Assembly: GCA_021773835.1 (NCBI GenBank)
Contig: JAJFJQ010000057.1
Location: 124,001 to 188,000 of the forward strand
Origin: Gammaproteobacteria bacterium
GTDB lineage: Bacteria > Pseudomonadota > Gammaproteobacteria > Ga0077536
Reading direction: 5' to 3'
DNA: 64,000 nt
Every line of letters begins with the position of its first letter. The first letter of the stretch is position 1. Of this stretch, positions 26,928 to 35,215 are shown piece after piece. The position numbers and the translations under genes are program-made. A model generated the notes under the pieces. The model had not been told where the DNA came from, did no database searches, and was given only the letters and a program-made list of their open reading frames with translations.

Positions 26928-28388
26928 TTAATTGTCGCCGCGGCGATTGTGTTGCGGCTGCACGACGATACCGTGCCGTTTCATTCGATAACGCATCGCC
27001 ATTCTTGTAATACCTAAACGTCGCGAAGCAGCGGAAACGTTGTGGCCGCACTTTTTGAGTGCTTCATTAATCAACGCGCGCTCCGCTTCGTCAAGTGTTA
27101 ACGTGAAAAAGTCATCTGAGGAAGCTGGGTGGTCCGCGATTGGCAACAATAATCCGTCTTCGGTGACTTTCCCATCCCCACTTAACAGGGTCGCACGCTC
27201 AATCACATGGCGCAGTTCCCGGACGTTTCCAGGCCAGTGGTAGCCGCGCAGTCGTTTTGCTGCCGCGTCGCTCAAGTCGAAGCTTGCCATCCCATGGCGG
27301 CGAGCGATGTTATGCCCGAAGAACTCACTCAGCAGAATGACATCATCGCCACGTTCATGTAATAACGGCAATTCAAGGCTCAATACGTTTAATCGGAAGT
27401 ACAGATCCGAGCGCAAGCTTCCGTCTTTAATCATCGCGTTGACGTTTCGATTCGTCGCAGCGATAAACCACGCCTTGATTGGAAGTTCCCGTGTGCTGCC
27501 AACTCGCCGCAACATCCGGCGTTCCAGTACAGCCAACAGCTTTCCTTGCATATCGGGTGGCAACTCTCCGATTTCGTCCAAGAACACGACGCCATCTTCT
27601 GCTATCTCGATCAAGCCCATCCGTTCAGCGTGTGCGTTTGTAAAGGCGCCTTTGACGTGACCAAATAACTCCGACTCAATCAAATCTTTTGGCAACGATG
27701 CACAATCGACATGTACGAAAGGCTTGCTCGATCGTTCAGATAGGCTGTGGAGCATGCGTGCCGAAACGTCTTTGCCGCTGCCGGTGGGCCCAGTTATCAG
27801 CACCGTCGGCGGCGGGCCAGTCGGCACAGAGCAGAGCCTCGCTATCTTTTGGATCTGATCTTTCAGTTGTCGAATTGGATAAGATTCCCCGATGATCGAG
27901 GCGAAGTCACTGCTACGCGCTTCACGGGCTCTGGAATAGGCCAGCTGTGTCGATACCTTGTTGGTCGTGATGACTTTATCCACCACCAACATTAGCTCAT
28001 CTAGATCGAAGGGTTTCTTGAGGTAATCCGATGCCGATAATTTCATCGCCGCAACAGCATCGTCGACTTCTCCATAGGCGCTCATTACCACAACCGGAAC
28101 GGTCGACGCCGACGAATTACGTAAACGCTGCAGAAAATCCAGACCCGAGCCGTCGGGTAGGCGCATGTCTAAAAGCAATAGATCCGGCGATTGAGATTTG
28201 AGCGCACAATCGGCATCACCTAATGAGCCAACAATTTGGCACGCATAGCCGTCGCGTTCGAGGCGTCGAGCGATTGCTTTCGCAAATATTGATTCATCTT
28301 CGACAATGAGCACCCGCTGTGATTCGAAGTGCCCGGCCTGTGGAGTTTCGGATTGATCCTGACTAGCGTTCAATAAAATTAGGCTCAC
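26928..28388 (-). CDS. NtrC-like sigma-54 response regulator with GAFTNA loop
   Basis: A 486-residue regulator: receiver (about 25-140, VLIVEDESIFAKAIARRLE; phospho-Asp in LLLLDMRLPDGSG), AAA+ domain with Walker A ITGPTGSGKD and Walker B GVVFLDEIGELP, and a C-terminal Fis-type helix-turn-helix (NVSAASRRLGITRMAMRYR). The sigma-54 contact loop is GAFTNA rather than the usual GAFTGA. It is 21 bases downstream of the partner kinase. Target genes are not visible; the adjacent genes show no clear -24/-12 promoter. Confidence 0.93.
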   Translation of the reverse strand: MSLILLNASQDQSETPQAGHFESQRVLIVEDESIFAKAIARRLERDGYACQIVGSLGDADCALKSQSPDLLLLDMRLPDGSGLDFLQRLRNSSASTVPVVVMSAYGEVDDAVAAMKLSASDYLKKPFDLDELMLVVDKVITTNKVSTQLAYSRAREARSSDFASIIGESYPIRQLKDQIQKIARLCSVPTGPPPTVLITGPTGSGKDVSARMLHSLSERSSKPFVHVDCASLPKDLIESELFGHVKGAFTNAHAERMGLIEIAEDGVVFLDEIGELPPDMQGKLLAVLERRMLRRVGSTRELPIKAWFIAATNRNVNAMIKDGSLRSDLYFRLNVLSLELPLLHERGDDVILLSEFFGHNIARRHGMASFDLSDAAAKRLRGYHWPGNVRELRHVIERATLLSGDGKVTEDGLLLPIADHPASSDDFFTLTLDEAERALINEALKKCGHNVSAASRRLGITRMAMRYRMKRHGIVVQPQHNRRGDN

Positions 28389-28409
28389 ACAAAATAATCA
28401 TTACGTTGG

Positions 28410-29870
28410 TCAAACAACTATCGGTGCCTTAACAATCACCTTCGTGCCGCTGTCCTCAACGATATCGTAGTCGATCTCCCACCCATGTGCCTTACACACT
28501 TTAAACGCAACAGGGATCCCAAGGCCTGTGCCCATGCGTTTTGTTGTCGGCCCCGGTTCGAGCCCCGTAGGTTCGGGCATAAACGGTATCCCGCCGCCCC
28601 AGTCCTCGACTCCGAAAACCACATGTGTTGGGCTCTCGAAGACCGACAACACGATCTTTCCCCCGTCAGAAGACGCGTCTATCGCGTTGCAAATGACGGC
28701 GTAAAATGCCTGCTCTACCAAATCCGGGTCGACTTCGACCTGCGCGTTTTCGTCCCATGGGTGGCGCGATATTCTTATCGATTTTTCTTGAATACGTGAT
28801 TCAAGCAGGCTTAAGGGCGCATCCACCAACGATGTTGCAATTGCCGTGTGAGTTCGAGGTTTGAGCGGATGTAAGTAAGACACTAACGAACTTACCCAGC
28901 GTTCTAAGCGGTCGACTGCCTGGATTATCGCAGTCTTGCTCTCTTCAATCTCGCTTGGCCCGCGTCCATAATCTAGTAGCTGTGCGCTTGCCCGGATTGC
29001 CGCCAGTGGATTTCTAATATTGTGTGCTACCACTGGGACAAGTCCACCAAGCGCTGCCTGGCGTTCGCTGTCTATCAAAGCGTCACGGCTACGTTCCAAC
29101 TCAGCCCCCATCTCTGCTATACCACGGACAATTTCACCGACCTCCGCCACCGCATGATTGTCGACCTCAATCGATGGTCCGCGCGATCCAACGTGCCTAA
29201 TTGCCGCCACCACGTTTTGCACCGGACGAACAAACCCGCGGATCAGGCTAGCGCGAGAAACAAGCAGCAAAATCGTCGCTATTACGATTGGAATTGGGAT
29301 GGCATAGGGCGCAAACCGCGTCCATCGCTTAATCTTTACCGCCTGCGCTTCTAATTGTTGATTTATCAAACCACGTAAACTTCGAAATGCCGATTCGAAA
29401 TCCGCTACAAGTTCTTCCTCAAAAATTGGGTTAAGAAGCTCGCTGAGGGCAATCCGATTGAGTGTACTGGGGTCGACAGACATTTCATTCATATCGACTT
29501 GGATCGTGCTGTAGGCTTGCTGCAATGCTTGAATGGCATAGGCCTCCGCGCGGGATACTGAGCGTTGCCGAAGATTATTAAATTGAGTATTGATTGATTT
29601 GGTGTACTGGGCGTAGACGTCCTTCGCGGCATCGGTGTCGCCAACGCGCGCGAGCGCAACTTCGTTTATCTGGCGGTAGAGGTCGGATCTGATCTCTTGC
29701 GCAACATGTGCGAGACCGTTTAAGCGGATAGACTCCGCCGAAGTCTGCTGCCAAAAATATGCCCAGACGCCGCCAAGTGCCCCCGCGACGATAACCAATA
29801 CAACAAATGCCAGCTCATGGGTTAGGAGTAAACGCCGAAGCGAATTTGGGAGCCCTGCCGTCGTGTTCAA
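28410..29870 (-). CDS. Membrane sensor histidine kinase partner of the NtrC-like regulator
   Basis: A 486-residue kinase. TM1 is near residues 17-37, TM2 near 190-210 (APYAIPIPIVIATILLLV), with a periplasmic helical region of about 150 residues between them. HAMP-like linker, then the phospho-acceptor helix LGGLVPVVAHNIRNPLAAIR and an ATPase domain with GGKIVLSV, VEDWGGGIP and GTGLGIPVAFKV. The N-box sequence CNAIDASSDGG resembles NtrB/DctB kinases. The gene pair (kinase first) is a complete two-component system with unknown stimulus. Confidence 0.92.
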   Translation of the reverse strand: MNTTAGLPNSLRRLLLTHELAFVVLVIVAGALGGVWAYFWQQTSAESIRLNGLAHVAQEIRSDLYRQINEVALARVGDTDAAKDVYAQYTKSINTQFNNLRQRSVSRAEAYAIQALQQAYSTIQVDMNEMSVDPSTLNRIALSELLNPIFEEELVADFESAFRSLRGLINQQLEAQAVKIKRWTRFAPYAIPIPIVIATILLLVSRASLIRGFVRPVQNVVAAIRHVGSRGPSIEVDNHAVAEVGEIVRGIAEMGAELERSRDALIDSERQAALGGLVPVVAHNIRNPLAAIRASAQLLDYGRGPSEIEESKTAIIQAVDRLERWVSSLVSYLHPLKPRTHTAIATSLVDAPLSLLESRIQEKSIRISRHPWDENAQVEVDPDLVEQAFYAVICNAIDASSDGGKIVLSVFESPTHVVFGVEDWGGGIPFMPEPTGLEPGPTTKRMGTGLGIPVAFKVCKAHGWEIDYDIVEDSGTKVIVKAPIVV

Positions 29871-29946
29871 TTAACTACAAGCCCACGAAACAGTCGCCGA
29901 CGCAGACGATAAATGGAAGCATCAGTCCACGCGGACAGAAGCCAAA

Positions 29947-30489
29947 CTACCACGGTCGGATCCGACGCAATACACCGTCGTCGCGGGCGAATGCGTGCGA
30001 AATGGCACCGAGTATGTGGATCCCAATCAACACGACAAATAAGACCGAACTCGCAACGTGGATCTCGGTGAAAAATTCATTAAGTGGTGGATCACGCCAT
30101 CCCCACTGGGGCAATGGCAAGCCGAAGATTCGCGTAGTGTAGCCACTGAAAGAGGACGAGAGGTAGCCGCTCACCGGTTGCAGGAATAATAAAACGTAGA
30201 ACACCAAATGTGCGCTACGTGCAATCGTTATTCGCCAACGGGACAGCGATTCGTGGTAGGACGGCGGCCGATGGTAAATTCGCCAAATAACACGGATTAG
30301 CGCGAGCCCGAGGACCGTCAGGCCGAGTGATTTGTGCAGTGCGAAATAGAAACTTCGGTCTGGTCCACGTGGTAAATCGACCATAAACCAACCGATCGCA
30401 AATAAGCCGAAAACAGCAAGTGCAATCAACCAATGCAACACTATCGCGACCAATGTGTATCGCTGTGTAGCGTCAGACATCGACTTCAT
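29947..30489 (-). CDS. Cytochrome b561 family membrane protein
   Basis: A 180-residue protein with four transmembrane helices (about 12-32, 46-65, 85-110, 145-165) and histidines in helices 1 (LHWLIALAVFGLF), 2 (HKSLGLTVL), 3 (HLVFYVLLFLQP) and 4 (HILGAISHAF), the ligands for two b haems. Members oxidise quinol and pass electrons to periplasmic acceptors or superoxide. It is divergent from the L,D-transpeptidase operon, sharing a 185-base intergenic region. No dedicated partner is seen. Confidence 0.93.
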   Translation of the reverse strand: MKSMSDATQRYTLVAIVLHWLIALAVFGLFAIGWFMVDLPRGPDRSFYFALHKSLGLTVLGLALIRVIWRIYHRPPSYHESLSRWRITIARSAHLVFYVLLFLQPVSGYLSSSFSGYTTRIFGLPLPQWGWRDPPLNEFFTEIHVASSVLFVVLIGIHILGAISHAFARDDGVLRRIRPW

Positions 30490-30674: not shown

Positions 30675-31268
30675 GTGCATTACAGCTATATCATCCTAGC
30701 AATCTCACTTGCATGGAATACTGTTGCCGCGTCGGATTCTAGTGCCGACGGCATCGAAAACCTGGCCACGCCGGATAGACCATATTATCTCGAGATTGAC
30801 AAGTCGGAGCGCCTACTCAAAGTTAAACACGCTGGGGAAACCTACCGACAATTTCATGTGGCCTACGGTCGCGGCGGCCCGGGGGATAAACAACGGTTAG
30901 GGGACAGGAAGACGCCGGAAGGCATCTATCGCGTCGCAGGATTCAACGAAAGCACAAATTTTCATTTTTTCATTCGCCTGAACTACCCGAATGTGGAAGA
31001 CGCGTTTTCCGGTTTGCGGAATAATATTATCTCTGAACGTGAATTCAATCAGATCATCGAATCACTGAAGTTTGGCAGATTACCGCCGCAGAATACCGCA
31101 CTCGGTGGCGCTATTGGCATCCACGGCGTTGGGCTGGAGACCGTCGAAAAGCTAAAGATACATTCTAATTTGAACTGGACAAAAGGATGCTTAGCATTGA
31201 CTAATGAAGAGGTACTAACGCTGCGCCAATATGTCTCTATCGGCACAGAGGTAATAATCAAGGAATGA
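30675..31268 (+). CDS. L,D-transpeptidase (YkuD family), first gene of a six-gene envelope operon
   Basis: A 197-residue exported protein that begins at GTG 30675, the only start giving a signal peptide (IILAISLAWNTVAA). The YkuD domain has YLEIDKSERLLKV, GRGGPGDKQRLGDRKTPEG, IGIHGVG and the catalytic segment WTKGCLALTNEE with the nucleophile cysteine. Such enzymes cross-link peptidoglycan or attach proteins to it. It overlaps the next gene by 4 bases (ATGA). As the leading gene of the ExbB/vWA cluster it suggests that the system works on or is anchored to the cell wall. Confidence 0.88.
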   Translation: MHYSYIILAISLAWNTVAASDSSADGIENLATPDRPYYLEIDKSERLLKVKHAGETYRQFHVAYGRGGPGDKQRLGDRKTPEGIYRVAGFNESTNFHFFIRLNYPNVEDAFSGLRNNIISEREFNQIIESLKFGRLPPQNTALGGAIGIHGVGLETVEKLKIHSNLNWTKGCLALTNEEVLTLRQYVSIGTEVIIKE

Positions 31269-31759
31269 TCCCGCCACGCTTGAAGCTTCAAGCGTACGCT
31301 GCGCTTAATTACGTGGCCTTATTGCTTATCGGGTGCACCCAGCCAGCACCACCAAATCCAAACACTATCGTTCGAATGGTTACCGACAAACCATTCGAAG
31401 ACGTCATGTTCGATCTTGAATTTGCGATAACCGAACGGAATTTCCGCATTACGGGTCGCAATTCAATCGGCAGTGGGCTGCGTGATCGCGGCTACAAAGA
31501 CTTTCCAGACGTTGAAGTGATCCACTTTTGCAATCTCGAGTATGCACGCGAGGTATTGTTGATCGACCCTGGCTACGTCGCGCAGATGCCGTGCCGTATT
31601 ACCGTCCATATTGAAGATAATAAAACGGTACTTAGCCTAATTTTATTGCCTGAAGACCATGCCGATGAACGGGTTAATGCTTTCGCCCAGCGCATGAATG
31701 GTATATTGCACGACATCACCGATTTCGTGCTGGAACGTAACAATACCGAAGAATCATGA
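31265..31759 (+). CDS. Lipoprotein with DUF302-like domain
   Basis: A 164-residue protein with a lipoprotein signal ending in LLIGC (cysteine about residue 24). The remainder resembles the DUF302 alpha/beta fold: KPFEDVMFDLEFAITERNF, HFCNLEYAREVLLIDPGY, QMPCRITVHIEDNKTVLSLILLPE. The reaction or ligand of DUF302 is unknown. It overlaps its neighbours by 4 bases on both sides, so translation is coupled to the L,D-transpeptidase and the channel gene. The DUF302 assignment is moderate; a divergent relative is possible. Confidence 0.7.
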   Translation: MIPPRLKLQAYAALNYVALLLIGCTQPAPPNPNTIVRMVTDKPFEDVMFDLEFAITERNFRITGRNSIGSGLRDRGYKDFPDVEVIHFCNLEYAREVLLIDPGYVAQMPCRITVHIEDNKTVLSLILLPEDHADERVNAFAQRMNGILHDITDFVLERNNTEES

Positions 31760-32514
31760 CGCTTCAAGAGAATCGACATTATCTGCTTCTACTGTGGCTG
31801 ATCGTCAATGGTCTCATCGTTTTTGGCCTTGTCGTTTCGTGGCAGGAAGGTTTAATCATGCAATTGGTATACGGCGACCGCAGCCGCATTTGCCTAATTA
31901 TTGCTCTGCTATACGTAATAGGGACCGTGCATTGCGCTTCTCGGGTACTTTATTTATCCAAGGAGCTGAATCAAGCCGCTGACGTCGCGCAGGGTATTGC
32001 AGCAACCGATCGCAATAACGCGATCTCCATTTGCGATGGCCGCTTAGCTATCGGCGACGCCGAGCCATTTCCAAGGTGCGTGATAGCGCAACATTTAATT
32101 GATCTCGCTGATTCTAGAGAGGGATTTGACGAAACAGATCCTGCAGCTGAAAAATCAAACCTGATTGAAGCGCTCGCTGAGCGGCTAAAAGGTGCGCACG
32201 AGCTTGGCTGGTTTGCCGTCGATATTCTATTAAAACTCGGTCTGGTCGGAACAATCGTCGGTTTTATATTGATGTTGGGGTCGATCGCGAATACGGCATC
32301 GCTGGATGTCAACACCATGCAAAAAGTGCTTCGACAAATGAGTAGTGGGATGGGTACGGCTTTATTTACAACGCTAGCCGGGCTGATCGGGAGCATCCTA
32401 CTTGGATTGCAATATTTGTTACTCGATAAGGGCGCAGACGAACTCTTGCATCGAATCATTAGAGTCTCGGAAATCGAAATAAAACCCAACTTAGCGACTA
32501 AAGGAGCGCAATAG
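31756..32514 (+). CDS. MotA/TolQ/ExbB-type proton channel protein
   Basis: A 252-residue inner-membrane protein. TM segments lie near residues 9-29 and 42-62, then a cytoplasmic loop of about 90 residues, then the two family-defining helices: LLKLGLVGTIVGFILMLGSI (about 155-178) and SGMGTALFTTLAGLIGSILLG (about 193-215). GLVGTIVGF and GMGTALFTTLAGL are the ExbB/TolQ/MotA core. Paired with the single-span protein downstream it should form an ion-driven stator. It is not next to TonB, Tol or flagellar genes, so its output is unknown. Confidence 0.85.
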   Translation: MTLQENRHYLLLLWLIVNGLIVFGLVVSWQEGLIMQLVYGDRSRICLIIALLYVIGTVHCASRVLYLSKELNQAADVAQGIAATDRNNAISICDGRLAIGDAEPFPRCVIAQHLIDLADSREGFDETDPAAEKSNLIEALAERLKGAHELGWFAVDILLKLGLVGTIVGFILMLGSIANTASLDVNTMQKVLRQMSSGMGTALFTTLAGLIGSILLGLQYLLLDKGADELLHRIIRVSEIEIKPNLATKGAQ

Positions 32515-32516
32515 CG

Positions 32517-33128
32517 GTGCCTGTATTTGGCTCACGTATGAATCGGCGCCGGAGTACGTCCGACCCATTCACGGACTTGTTATTCAACGCGCTACTTGGA
32601 TTTACGTTCTTGTTCCTCCTAGCGATTCTATTTATGAATCCAGTCGCGAAAAAAGGAATCATTAACCCTAAAGCCGAATACATCGTCACTATTGCTTGGC
32701 CAGATAAAAGTCCTGACGACGTCGATGCTTGGGTAGAAGACCCGAATGGCAACCTCATCTGGTTTAGAAATCGCGAAGCCGGCCTCGTCCATCTCGATCG
32801 CGACGATCGAGGTCAAATTAATGACACAATCACCATTAATGGTGAAGAAATTCAAAATCCACTAAATCAAGAAGTCGTTACAATCCGTGGGGTAGTGCCG
32901 GGCGAATTTGTCGTAAACGTCCATTATTACGCGTCGGAATCGCAACGACCGCTGCCAGTAACCGTGAAAGTATCAAAAATTAATCCGGCACTCGAGATCG
33001 TTTACTATGGCGACACCTTACTAGAGAAAAAAGGGGATGAGAAAACTGCCGTGCGCTTTGTAGTTGACAAGACCGGAGCCGTGACGCAGATAAGCCATAT
33101 CTTTAAAAGCTTGGTCGTCATCGGATAA
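32517..33128 (+). CDS. ExbD/MotB-position membrane protein with unusual periplasmic domain
   Basis: A 203-residue protein starting at GTG 32517 (AGGAG about ten bases upstream). After a basic N-terminus it has one transmembrane helix (about residues 18-40, LLFNALLGFTFLFLLAILFM) with Asp residues just before it (DPFTDLL), the place of the proton-binding aspartate in MotB/ExbD proteins. The periplasmic part is not the usual short ExbD domain: it is a beta-rich region with WPDKSPDDVDAWVEDPNGN and VVTIRGVVPGEFVVNVHYYA, like a small carbohydrate- or metal-binding beta sandwich. It follows the channel gene by 2 bases. Confidence 0.75.
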   Translation: MPVFGSRMNRRRSTSDPFTDLLFNALLGFTFLFLLAILFMNPVAKKGIINPKAEYIVTIAWPDKSPDDVDAWVEDPNGNLIWFRNREAGLVHLDRDDRGQINDTITINGEEIQNPLNQEVVTIRGVVPGEFVVNVHYYASESQRPLPVTVKVSKINPALEIVYYGDTLLEKKGDEKTAVRFVVDKTGAVTQISHIFKSLVVIG

Positions 33129-33141
33129 CGGAGAATTAGTC

Positions 33142-33663
33142 GTGTTAATGCTGAGCCAAGGAGGACTGGTCGCCGCATTTGTATTGACAGCCTTGTTACT
33201 GCTTGGCGTAAATTTGTATTCGAACTTTTCCTGGCAGATAAAAGCGCTGTTGGTCGTAGCGGTGTCTGCCTTCTACGTCGTGGTCTACTACTCATTGCCA
33301 CCATTGATGGGATGGCCTGCTGATGAGCGATTACCGAAACGATTTAATCTCGTCGCAACCTATGTCCAGGAACCCGATAAGAAAACAGGCGATTCTGGCC
33401 AAATATTCCTATGGGTTACCGACCTTGATAGCGGATCGGGGATCCGCAAACCTCGCGCCTATCGCCTACCATTTGCGAATGACCTGCACGCAAAAGTAGT
33501 TGAGGCCGGAACGAAAGTACGCAAAGGGATACCGCAATTGGGTGAAGTCGTTGATGAAAATCTGGGAACGATGGGGCGACCGTCTGATGAAACCAGCCGT
33601 GGCCAAGAATCAACAGACGTCGATTTTTTGGACCTGCCGGACCCGCTGTTCCCGGAAAAATAA
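33142..33663 (+). CDS. Small membrane protein of unknown function in the channel operon
   Basis: A 173-residue protein with two adjacent N-terminal membrane helices (about 8-24 and 33-52, IKALLVVAVSAFYVVVYYSLP), then a soluble region containing GQIFLWVTDL, RKPRAYRLPF and a polar C-terminus. I do not recognise the family. It lies 13 bases after the ExbD-like gene and ends 10 bases before the vWA-FHA gene, so it belongs to the same unit and is probably a structural partner of the membrane complex. Confidence 0.7.
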   Translation: MLMLSQGGLVAAFVLTALLLLGVNLYSNFSWQIKALLVVAVSAFYVVVYYSLPPLMGWPADERLPKRFNLVATYVQEPDKKTGDSGQIFLWVTDLDSGSGIRKPRAYRLPFANDLHAKVVEAGTKVRKGIPQLGEVVDENLGTMGRPSDETSRGQESTDVDFLDLPDPLFPEK

Positions 33664-33673
33664 CCGATCGATC

Positions 33674-35215
33674 ATGCTACGTATAACTCGACTGCCGGCC
33701 ACAATGGTGATGACAACTAAGATGTTATCACTGCTGATCGTCCTAGCAATTATGGCGCTGAGTGTTGTCCCTGCCGCATACTCGGCGACGCTAACCGAAC
33801 ATATGGACATCGAGTGTCGTCAACCGGAAGCGCTTTCGCTACATTGTGACTATCGGATCCTAAGCGGCGCCGATCTCATTTCTAGTTTGGCCGAACACTC
33901 ACAAATTAGTGTTGCCGGGGAAATAAGCACCATTCGGCCGGACTATGACGATACCGTTACGGCGACACTGTTCCTCGTTGACACCAGCGACCCGGCACGT
34001 GAGTCGGTGATTACAAAAAATCGGGACCACATTCAGCACATGGTGGCGTTGGGGTCTTCGCATCATGTCTATGGGCTCGCGGCCTTCGACTCGCTGTTAG
34101 AAATGCTGTGTGACTTAGGTTGTTCAAATACCGAAATCATTGAAGCCTCGAACCACCTGCAAGCTAAAGGCAAAACCACCGAACTGTATCGCAACCTGCT
34201 CGAAGCAATTAAGGAACTTCGCGCATTCGATGCCGCTCGTCGCCAGATAATACTAATGTCGGATGGCTTGGCCGAAGACTTGGCCTACTACCATGAGGAC
34301 GTCATCGCAGCCGCAAGGAGTGAGCGGATCGTTATCTCGGCGATTGGTTACCCGCGATCCGTGCCCCAATCCGTCGCCTTGCAAACTTTGCGTCGGTTAA
34401 GCGAAGAGACCGGCGGACTATTTATTCAAGCTAGCAATCTTGATTATCAAGTACCGGATACATTTTTTACTCGGGCGATGTCGGCAATAGACGACGGTGG
34501 GCGCGTCTCATTTAGCCTCGATGCGCTTCAACAGCAAGGGGTTGAAGGGAATGTAGAGCTTTCGTTGGCGTTCCAAACAACCGAGCAGAGCTTTGCGGTA
34601 CTTGTGCCGGTTTCGCTTCCGGTTTTCGAAGCAGCGGCAGAGTCTCCAGCAGCAGATCGAGTTATTGCGGATACGTCCCCTGTTGGGCAGTTACCGGCAA
34701 CGCCGGATTCCGCCATGGCACCAACTTCCGGTAGTTCGAGTTGGAACTGGTTCTGGTACGGCCTCCCGGCAATGGTGTTCTCGGCCTTCTTAGCGGTCGC
34801 GCTAGCCTACGCTTTGATGACGCGACGGCGCCGCGAAGAGCATTCGCAATTTCGCCCGTCGCAATCGACACCGCATGCATTTCTAGTTAGCGCAGACAAC
34901 GACCAGATCCGCTACAAGATAGACCAAACGCCGTGGCGGATCGGGCGTAGTCGAAGTAGCAACCTGACCCTCGACGACACATCTGTATCACGACTCCATG
35001 CGGAGATTCGACGCGATGCGCTCGGCCAATTTACGCTGCAAGATCTCGAATCGCTGAATGGCGTCTTCGTTAATGGCGAAGCGGTCGAGATGACTCATCT
35101 AGACGAAAACGATCGAGTCGAAATTGGCGATGTTGCGTTCGTATTTTCGTTCCACGATGAAGACTATTCGCAACAGGAACCGACCGTACTCGTCCGAACA
35201 ATTACGCCGAAATAG
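33674..35215 (+). CDS. von Willebrand A - transmembrane - FHA domain protein
   Basis: A 513-residue protein beginning at ATG 33674; a longer open frame overlaps the previous gene and was rejected. It has an N-terminal signal/anchor (MLSLLIVLAIMALSVVPAA), a periplasmic vWA-like domain (about 85-300) with TLFLVDTSD at the metal site and QIILMSDGL, a membrane helix near 355-380 (FWYGLPAMVFSAFLAVALAYAL) and a cytoplasmic C-terminal FHA domain (about 405-500; WRIGRSRSSNLTLDDTSVSR, LHAEI, LESLNGVFVNG). The vWA domain faces the periplasm and the FHA domain, which reads phospho-threonine, the cytoplasm. It ends the operon, converging on tilS. Confidence 0.85.
   Translation: MLRITRLPATMVMTTKMLSLLIVLAIMALSVVPAAYSATLTEHMDIECRQPEALSLHCDYRILSGADLISSLAEHSQISVAGEISTIRPDYDDTVTATLFLVDTSDPARESVITKNRDHIQHMVALGSSHHVYGLAAFDSLLEMLCDLGCSNTEIIEASNHLQAKGKTTELYRNLLEAIKELRAFDAARRQIILMSDGLAEDLAYYHEDVIAAARSERIVISAIGYPRSVPQSVALQTLRRLSEETGGLFIQASNLDYQVPDTFFTRAMSAIDDGGRVSFSLDALQQQGVEGNVELSLAFQTTEQSFAVLVPVSLPVFEAAAESPAADRVIADTSPVGQLPATPDSAMAPTSGSSSWNWFWYGLPAMVFSAFLAVALAYALMTRRRREEHSQFRPSQSTPHAFLVSADNDQIRYKIDQTPWRIGRSRSSNLTLDDTSVSRLHAEIRRDALGQFTLQDLESLNGVFVNGEAVEMTHLDENDRVEIGDVAFVFSFHDEDYSQQEPTVLVRTITPK

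Follow-up and report, generated by a model that had tools for sequence, protein, structure and literature searches.

A membrane protein trio of probable motor-like nature, conserved in bacteria and phages, with companion genes that vary by lineage

Few motors are known to energise the periplasm, and those few (flagellar, Ton, Tol, gliding and Zorya) are well studied. With regard to ion passage, ExbB Thr148 and Thr181 are described as essential (PMC12905483), and in Zorya a serine/threonine ring is described as facing the critical ZorB Asp (PMC11890865). Here we describe a six-gene operon in a 64,000-nt stretch of gammaproteobacterial DNA (assembly GCA_021773835.1, contig JAJFJQ010000057.1, positions 124,001-188,000 of the forward strand; hereafter the window, whose numbering we use throughout). 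It encodes an L,D-transpeptidase-like enzyme (LDT), a DUF302 lipoprotein-like protein, a channel, a single-helix partner, a two-helix protein and a vWA-FHA protein (Table 1). A sequence-only reading had proposed that the six form a new ion-driven envelope machine tied to peptidoglycan and to phospho-threonine input. Its identification of YkuD, DUF302, MotA/ExbB, vWA and FHA families holds, each Pfam match being over its cut-off, as does the tight packing of the genes: all six open reading frames are present at 30675-35215 on the plus strand, the LDT and DUF302 genes and the DUF302 and channel genes overlap by 4 bp, and gaps of 2, 13 and 10 bp follow the channel, partner and two-helix genes, respectively. 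The six genes are not, as had been proposed, one unit. The conserved element is the channel, the partner and the two-helix protein (hereafter the trio), which is probably motor-like.

Relatives of the partner number at least 395 in a scan of some 85,000 species genomes, and the 80 best loci were read. The channel gene stands beside the partner in 79 of the 80, and the two-helix gene likewise in 79/80, whereas the accessories are far less frequent (LDT 46/80, DUF302 36/80, vWA-FHA 31/80). The invariant unit is therefore the trio, and the LDT, DUF302 and vWA-FHA genes are lineage-specific, being replaced elsewhere by a lipoprotein, PQQ genes, a kinase and phosphatase or a protease. The loci are not independent, since a larger set of 137 falls into 52 clusters at 80% partner identity. 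The trio occurs across Gamma-, Alpha- and Betaproteobacteria and Nitrospirota, the alphaproteobacterial carriers including small marine alphaproteobacteria and bradyrhizobia-like genomes; channel and partner are also present in the L185 copy and in an Azospirillum plasmid locus. The conserved neighbourhood that the sequence-only reading had suggested looking for was indeed found, beside tilS-accA-dnaE in many gammaproteobacteria. The recurrent order is cytochrome b561 (reverse), LDT, DUF302, channel, partner, two-helix gene, vWA-FHA or a second two-helix gene, and tilS-accA-dnaE (reverse). Besides the window's own family, two further families of the class share this b561-to-dnaE order, and the LDT-type order recurs both in sister species and in unrelated gammaproteobacteria, so the arrangement is not due to chance. 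The DUF302 gene was not found in the sister genera g3 and g5. No paper naming the trio was found in the open-access literature.

Judged by its sequence, the channel belongs to the MotA/TolQ/ExbB superfamily. Hydropathy predicts four transmembrane (TM) helices and a cytoplasmic part of about 90 aa, and Thr166 and Thr206, at the positions of the two ExbB threonines, are invariant. Like TolQ-TolR and ExbB-ExbD, the trio combines a channel domain with two conserved threonines and a small partner with a TM aspartate, encoded by adjacent genes. TolQ and ExbB have three TM helices, however, whereas the trio has four predicted in its channel, a beta-sandwich in its partner and a third, two-helix gene, and its locus is without TolA, TonB, TolB and Pal. 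The channel gives no TolQ equivalog match, and the host's own TolQ is encoded on another contig (288.7 bits, cut-off 221), two flagellar stators also lying elsewhere in the genome. MotA-MotB shares the four-helix channel layout and a partner with a TM Asp, but the trio stands outside flagellar loci, its cytoplasmic part is short and an OmpA-like peptidoglycan-binding domain was matched in none of 25 partner members; the channel stays below the MotA equivalog, with a weak MotP match of 12.6 bits against 394. With the gliding motors AglR-AglQ/S and GldL-GldM the trio has in common the idea of an ion-driven inner-membrane motor, but their periplasmic domains differ from that of the partner and no gliding genes were noticed near the trio.

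Zorya requires closer comparison, as ZorA is among the channel's best, though weak, matches, the best PDB match by profile being the ZorA-like chain 8vvn (E 0.24). A Zorya-like phage defence, or a superinfection exclusion, in which the trio would sense envelope damage and dissipate the membrane gradient, would fit this similarity and would predict the minimal trios that we find in phages. Yet the channel falls below every ZorA cut-off (best 19.4 bits against 500), the trio is without a long cytoplasmic tail, an OmpA-like domain or nuclease or helicase partners, no ZorC, ZorD or ZorE gene was seen among the neighbours, and the bacterial LDT-type copies lie in stable housekeeping synteny (tilS-accA-dnaE) rather than in defence islands. 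We consider a defence role very unlikely. Model cut-offs and missing partner genes agree with the earlier view that the locus lies outside Tol, Ton, Mot and Zorya. Taken whole, the trio matches none of the named systems tested, and we read it as a new family of an already known type of machine.

The phage versions are compact. A relative of the partner occurs on three IMG/VR contigs, and the two that were read (L190, L192) show the trio in the company of clear phage genes; by tblastn, 27 Rhizobium or Sinorhizobium phage records contain the partner. All three core genes were present, by profile or sequence resemblance, in 8/8 phage regions read (L193-L200; phages 16-3, P10VF, RHph_N3_19, RHph_I1_18, RHph_X2_25, RHph_I1_9, NV1.1.1 and RHph_TM3_3_14B), where they are annotated only as hypothetical proteins and are in some cases split by homing endonucleases or other small genes. 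The phage channels are short (113-158 aa), and the three chains together come to about 500 residues. In Pootjesviridae the trio adjoins replication genes, and in several other phages it comes after a trypsin-like protease; in a prophage-like locus (L186; G266:C38) channel, partner and two-helix gene have a lysozyme-like endolysin and a trypsin-like protease close by.

Structure prediction covered single chains. For the partner it gives a TM helix at residues 17-40 followed by a beta-sandwich. The sequence-only reading had placed an Asp before this helix; Asp16 does precede it, but the relevant residue, Asp20, falls within the first turn of the predicted helix. Asp20 is present in 101 of 129 partner sequences, phages included, none of which has Lys24. 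The remaining 28 have Ala or Val at position 20, and Lys24 in 28/28, sharing further changes at positions 27 and 29 while the channel threonines are kept; column comparison found no shared compensating acidic change in their channels. On the tree the partners lacking Asp20 form two separate groups, one of which is split further when the periplasmic domain is used alone, and a test forcing both groups into a single clade gave p 0.057, which does not reject a single origin of the change. Asp20 likely carries the ion, and the paired loss of Asp and gain of Lys makes the strict requirements of such a motor directly testable.

Neither the partner nor the two-helix protein has a significant match in Pfam, NCBIfam, PADLOC or PHROGs (best sub-threshold E ~0.002), and Foldseek returned no match to either model at E <0.001. 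Among VIA structural matches to the partner model, however, the top six score Z 8.1-9.9 and three of them are titled TerD or TerD homologue, against 6.0 for the next family. The modelled periplasmic domain thus resembles TerD-type entries best, with the difference that the head of the partner is periplasmic and follows a TM helix. Kinship with TerD was also sought by sequence profile, and this failed: 13 of 100 shuffles scored as high or higher, so that the match is not above shuffled controls. A sub-threshold DUF2135 match occurs in 12 of 25 partner members, and the window partner matches the C-terminal DUF2135-type domain of a VIT-vWA protein (G226; 1118 aa, L187:6083-9439) with a phmmer E of 2e-8. 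Since the acidic residues D68, D70, D94, D96, D97 and D103 are invariant in the partner, one might guess that it binds calcium. The two-helix protein has two TM helices, a small beta domain that is presumably periplasmic, and a conserved C-terminal tail, DLPDP..PEK; no convincing known fold was found for it, the best VIA structural match being eIF5A at Z 6.4. Its gene is duplicated in many loci of the gammaproteobacterial one of the two groups without Asp20.

Gene and motif conservation, family assignments and the swapping of accessories are shown directly. In the mechanism that we infer, which extends to stoichiometry, ion flow, rotation and clients, channel and partner would form a stator of the MotAB/ExbBD/TolQR/ZorAB kind, a pentamer around a dimer. 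Ions would move through the inner membrane at Asp20 of the partner and at Thr166 and Thr206 of the channel, and this flow would turn or shift the periplasmic beta-sandwich of the partner. The two-helix protein would be a third subunit that the machine cannot do without, its small periplasmic domain and conserved tail probably relaying the motion. The trio may serve as an energiser of general use, with a client that differs between lineages. We see about an even chance that the operon is one version of such a widespread ion-driven membrane motor with a three-protein core. It is possible, though we lean slightly against it, that the trio is a separate family of ion-driven envelope motors in every stated respect, with an obligate third membrane subunit, a TerD-like head on its axle, a plug-in character in bacteria and phages, and lineages that keep the channel threonines but have exchanged the aspartate for a lysine one turn of the helix from it. 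Several points weigh against the motor reading. Because Asp20 is lost in two groups, the standard ion path cannot serve all members. No ExbD, TolR or MotB model matches the partner, whose motor role is therefore argued from gene order, helix and Asp. Finally, LDT and vWA-FHA could be mere neighbours of the trio and not its clients.

The companions outside the LDT type could point to a different function. A lipoprotein gene, sub-threshold DUF3108-like, directly follows the trio in 26 loci, and many lipoprotein-type loci outside the small marine alphaproteobacteria sit within clusters for pyrroloquinoline quinone (PQQ) or quinoproteins (Thiothrix, Thiodiazotropha, betaproteobacteria). In L137, pqqB-pqqC lie directly upstream of the trio, and in Thiothrix eikelboomii (L145) the trio directly follows a quinoprotein relay operon encoding a cytochrome c, a substrate-binding protein, a SoxYZ-like carrier, a quinoprotein-relay metallohydrolase and a CXXCW protein, with NCBIfam matches over cut-off in both loci; the trio also stands within or beside PQQ biosynthesis or quinoprotein relay genes in L143, L178-L180, L049, L056 and L181. 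The trio might serve periplasmic quinoprotein metabolism, for example by exporting protein, supplying cofactor or loading metal for alcohol dehydrogenases that depend on calcium or lanthanides; the window copy might do so from another locus. In keeping with this, PQQ alcohol dehydrogenase is present in 14/14 genomes with a strong partner match against 95/398 in the sample, although the 14 belong to three families; 17 matches to the model occur in the window's genome and up to 20 in sister genomes, and the modelled partner fold resembles the calcium-binding TerD. A relative of the window (G017) has one LDT-type and one PQQ-type copy. PQQ genes are also within reach in 9 of 30 lipoprotein-type loci, the nine being all the non-alphaproteobacterial ones, and in L049 and L181. 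However, the proportion is 0/21 for alphaproteobacterial lipoprotein-type loci and just 2/68 for LDT-type loci, and none were seen near the phage trios. We judge a dedicated PQQ role to be unlikely.

The vWA-FHA protein would link the window's version to signalling. Its FHA (64.9 bits) and VWA (32.3 bits) matches are both over the Pfam cut-off, the phospho-threonine residues of FHA (G-R, S-R-x-H and the N-G signature) are conserved in 23/23 relatives, and the metal-ion-dependent adhesion site (MIDAS) of the vWA domain reads DTSDP in most of these 23. In two bradyrhizobia-like loci (L183, L184) the genes after the trio encode a calcineurin-like phosphoesterase and a Ser/Thr kinase that carries a universal stress domain. 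Such conservation and such neighbours would also suit a regulated ion channel or gradient sensor that exerts no force, its beta-sandwich and vWA-FHA protein reading ion flow, calcium or the state of the wall and signalling inward, as would the loss of Asp in two groups and the fact that no long TolA- or TonB-like arm is encoded. Against this, most members keep all ion-path residues and most loci have no kinase or FHA gene; a pure sensor seems to us rather improbable. As regards the motor reading, the client in the window is likely to be the cell wall or outer membrane, reached via the LDT-like enzyme and the DUF302 lipoprotein, and the vWA-FHA protein would connect the periplasm with cytoplasmic phospho-threonine signals. 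The LDT carries the catalytic-type motifs HG and TKGC and is weakly similar to DpaA/LdtF (NF040599) and to the solved YkuD protein 8ikr; it may be either a transpeptidase or an amidase of the DpaA type. We propose only tentatively, and with some doubt, that FHA controls an action of the window's version on the wall or outer membrane. Of the machine originally proposed, the ion-channel pair stands, but since the accessories are exchanged in other lineages, peptidoglycan and phospho-threonine input can apply only to the window's version.

If the motor reading is true, gammaproteobacteria, marine alphaproteobacteria, bradyrhizobia and Rhizobium phages would share a new outer-envelope energiser, one that has a third subunit of its own. 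Many hypothetical genes would gain names, and the compact phage versions would suit structure work.

Table 1. Features of the operon, in positions of the window
Feature	Position	Strand	Evidence
YkuD-fold L,D-transpeptidase-like (LDT), 197 aa; accessory of this lineage	30675..31268	+	PF03734, 68.6 bits, E 1e-18; HG...TKGC
DUF302 lipoprotein-like, 164 aa; accessory	31265..31759	+	PF03625, 41.3 bits, E 1.5e-10
Channel, core gene 1; MotA/TolQ/ExbB family, four predicted TM helices	31756..32514	+	MotA_ExbB PF01618, 36.7 bits (cut-off 22.9)
Channel Thr166, position of ExbB Thr148	32251..32253	+	invariant in 23/23 channel sequences
Channel Thr206, position of ExbB Thr181	32371..32373	+	invariant in 23/23 channel sequences
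Partner, core gene 2; one TM helix (17-40) and periplasmic beta-sandwich	32517..33128	+	AlphaFold2 model, pLDDT 81
Partner Asp20, likely ion-carrying	32574..32576	+	residue counts, column comparison
Partner residue 24, Asn in the window	32586..32588	+	residue counts, column comparison
Two-helix protein, core gene 3	33142..33663	+	two predicted TM helices; beside partner in 79/80 loci
vWA-FHA protein, accessory; signal sequence/TM at start	33674..35215	+	PF00092, PF00498 over cut-off
vWA-FHA protein, periplasmic vWA	33971-34444	+	
vWA-FHA protein, TM	near 34763-34819	+	
vWA-FHA protein, cytoplasmic FHA	34934-35128	+	

No tRNA lies within the 64-kb window. In Thiotrichaceae-like genomes, two reverse-strand genes of about 290 and 240 aa (L087:10464-11327 and L076:12631-13356) are repeatedly found between vWA-FHA and tilS; the 240-aa product has no Pfam match. 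Upstream of the operon, on the reverse strand at 26928-30489, the window encodes a cytochrome b561, a histidine kinase and an NtrC-type regulator, and this position is kept in many LDT-type loci.

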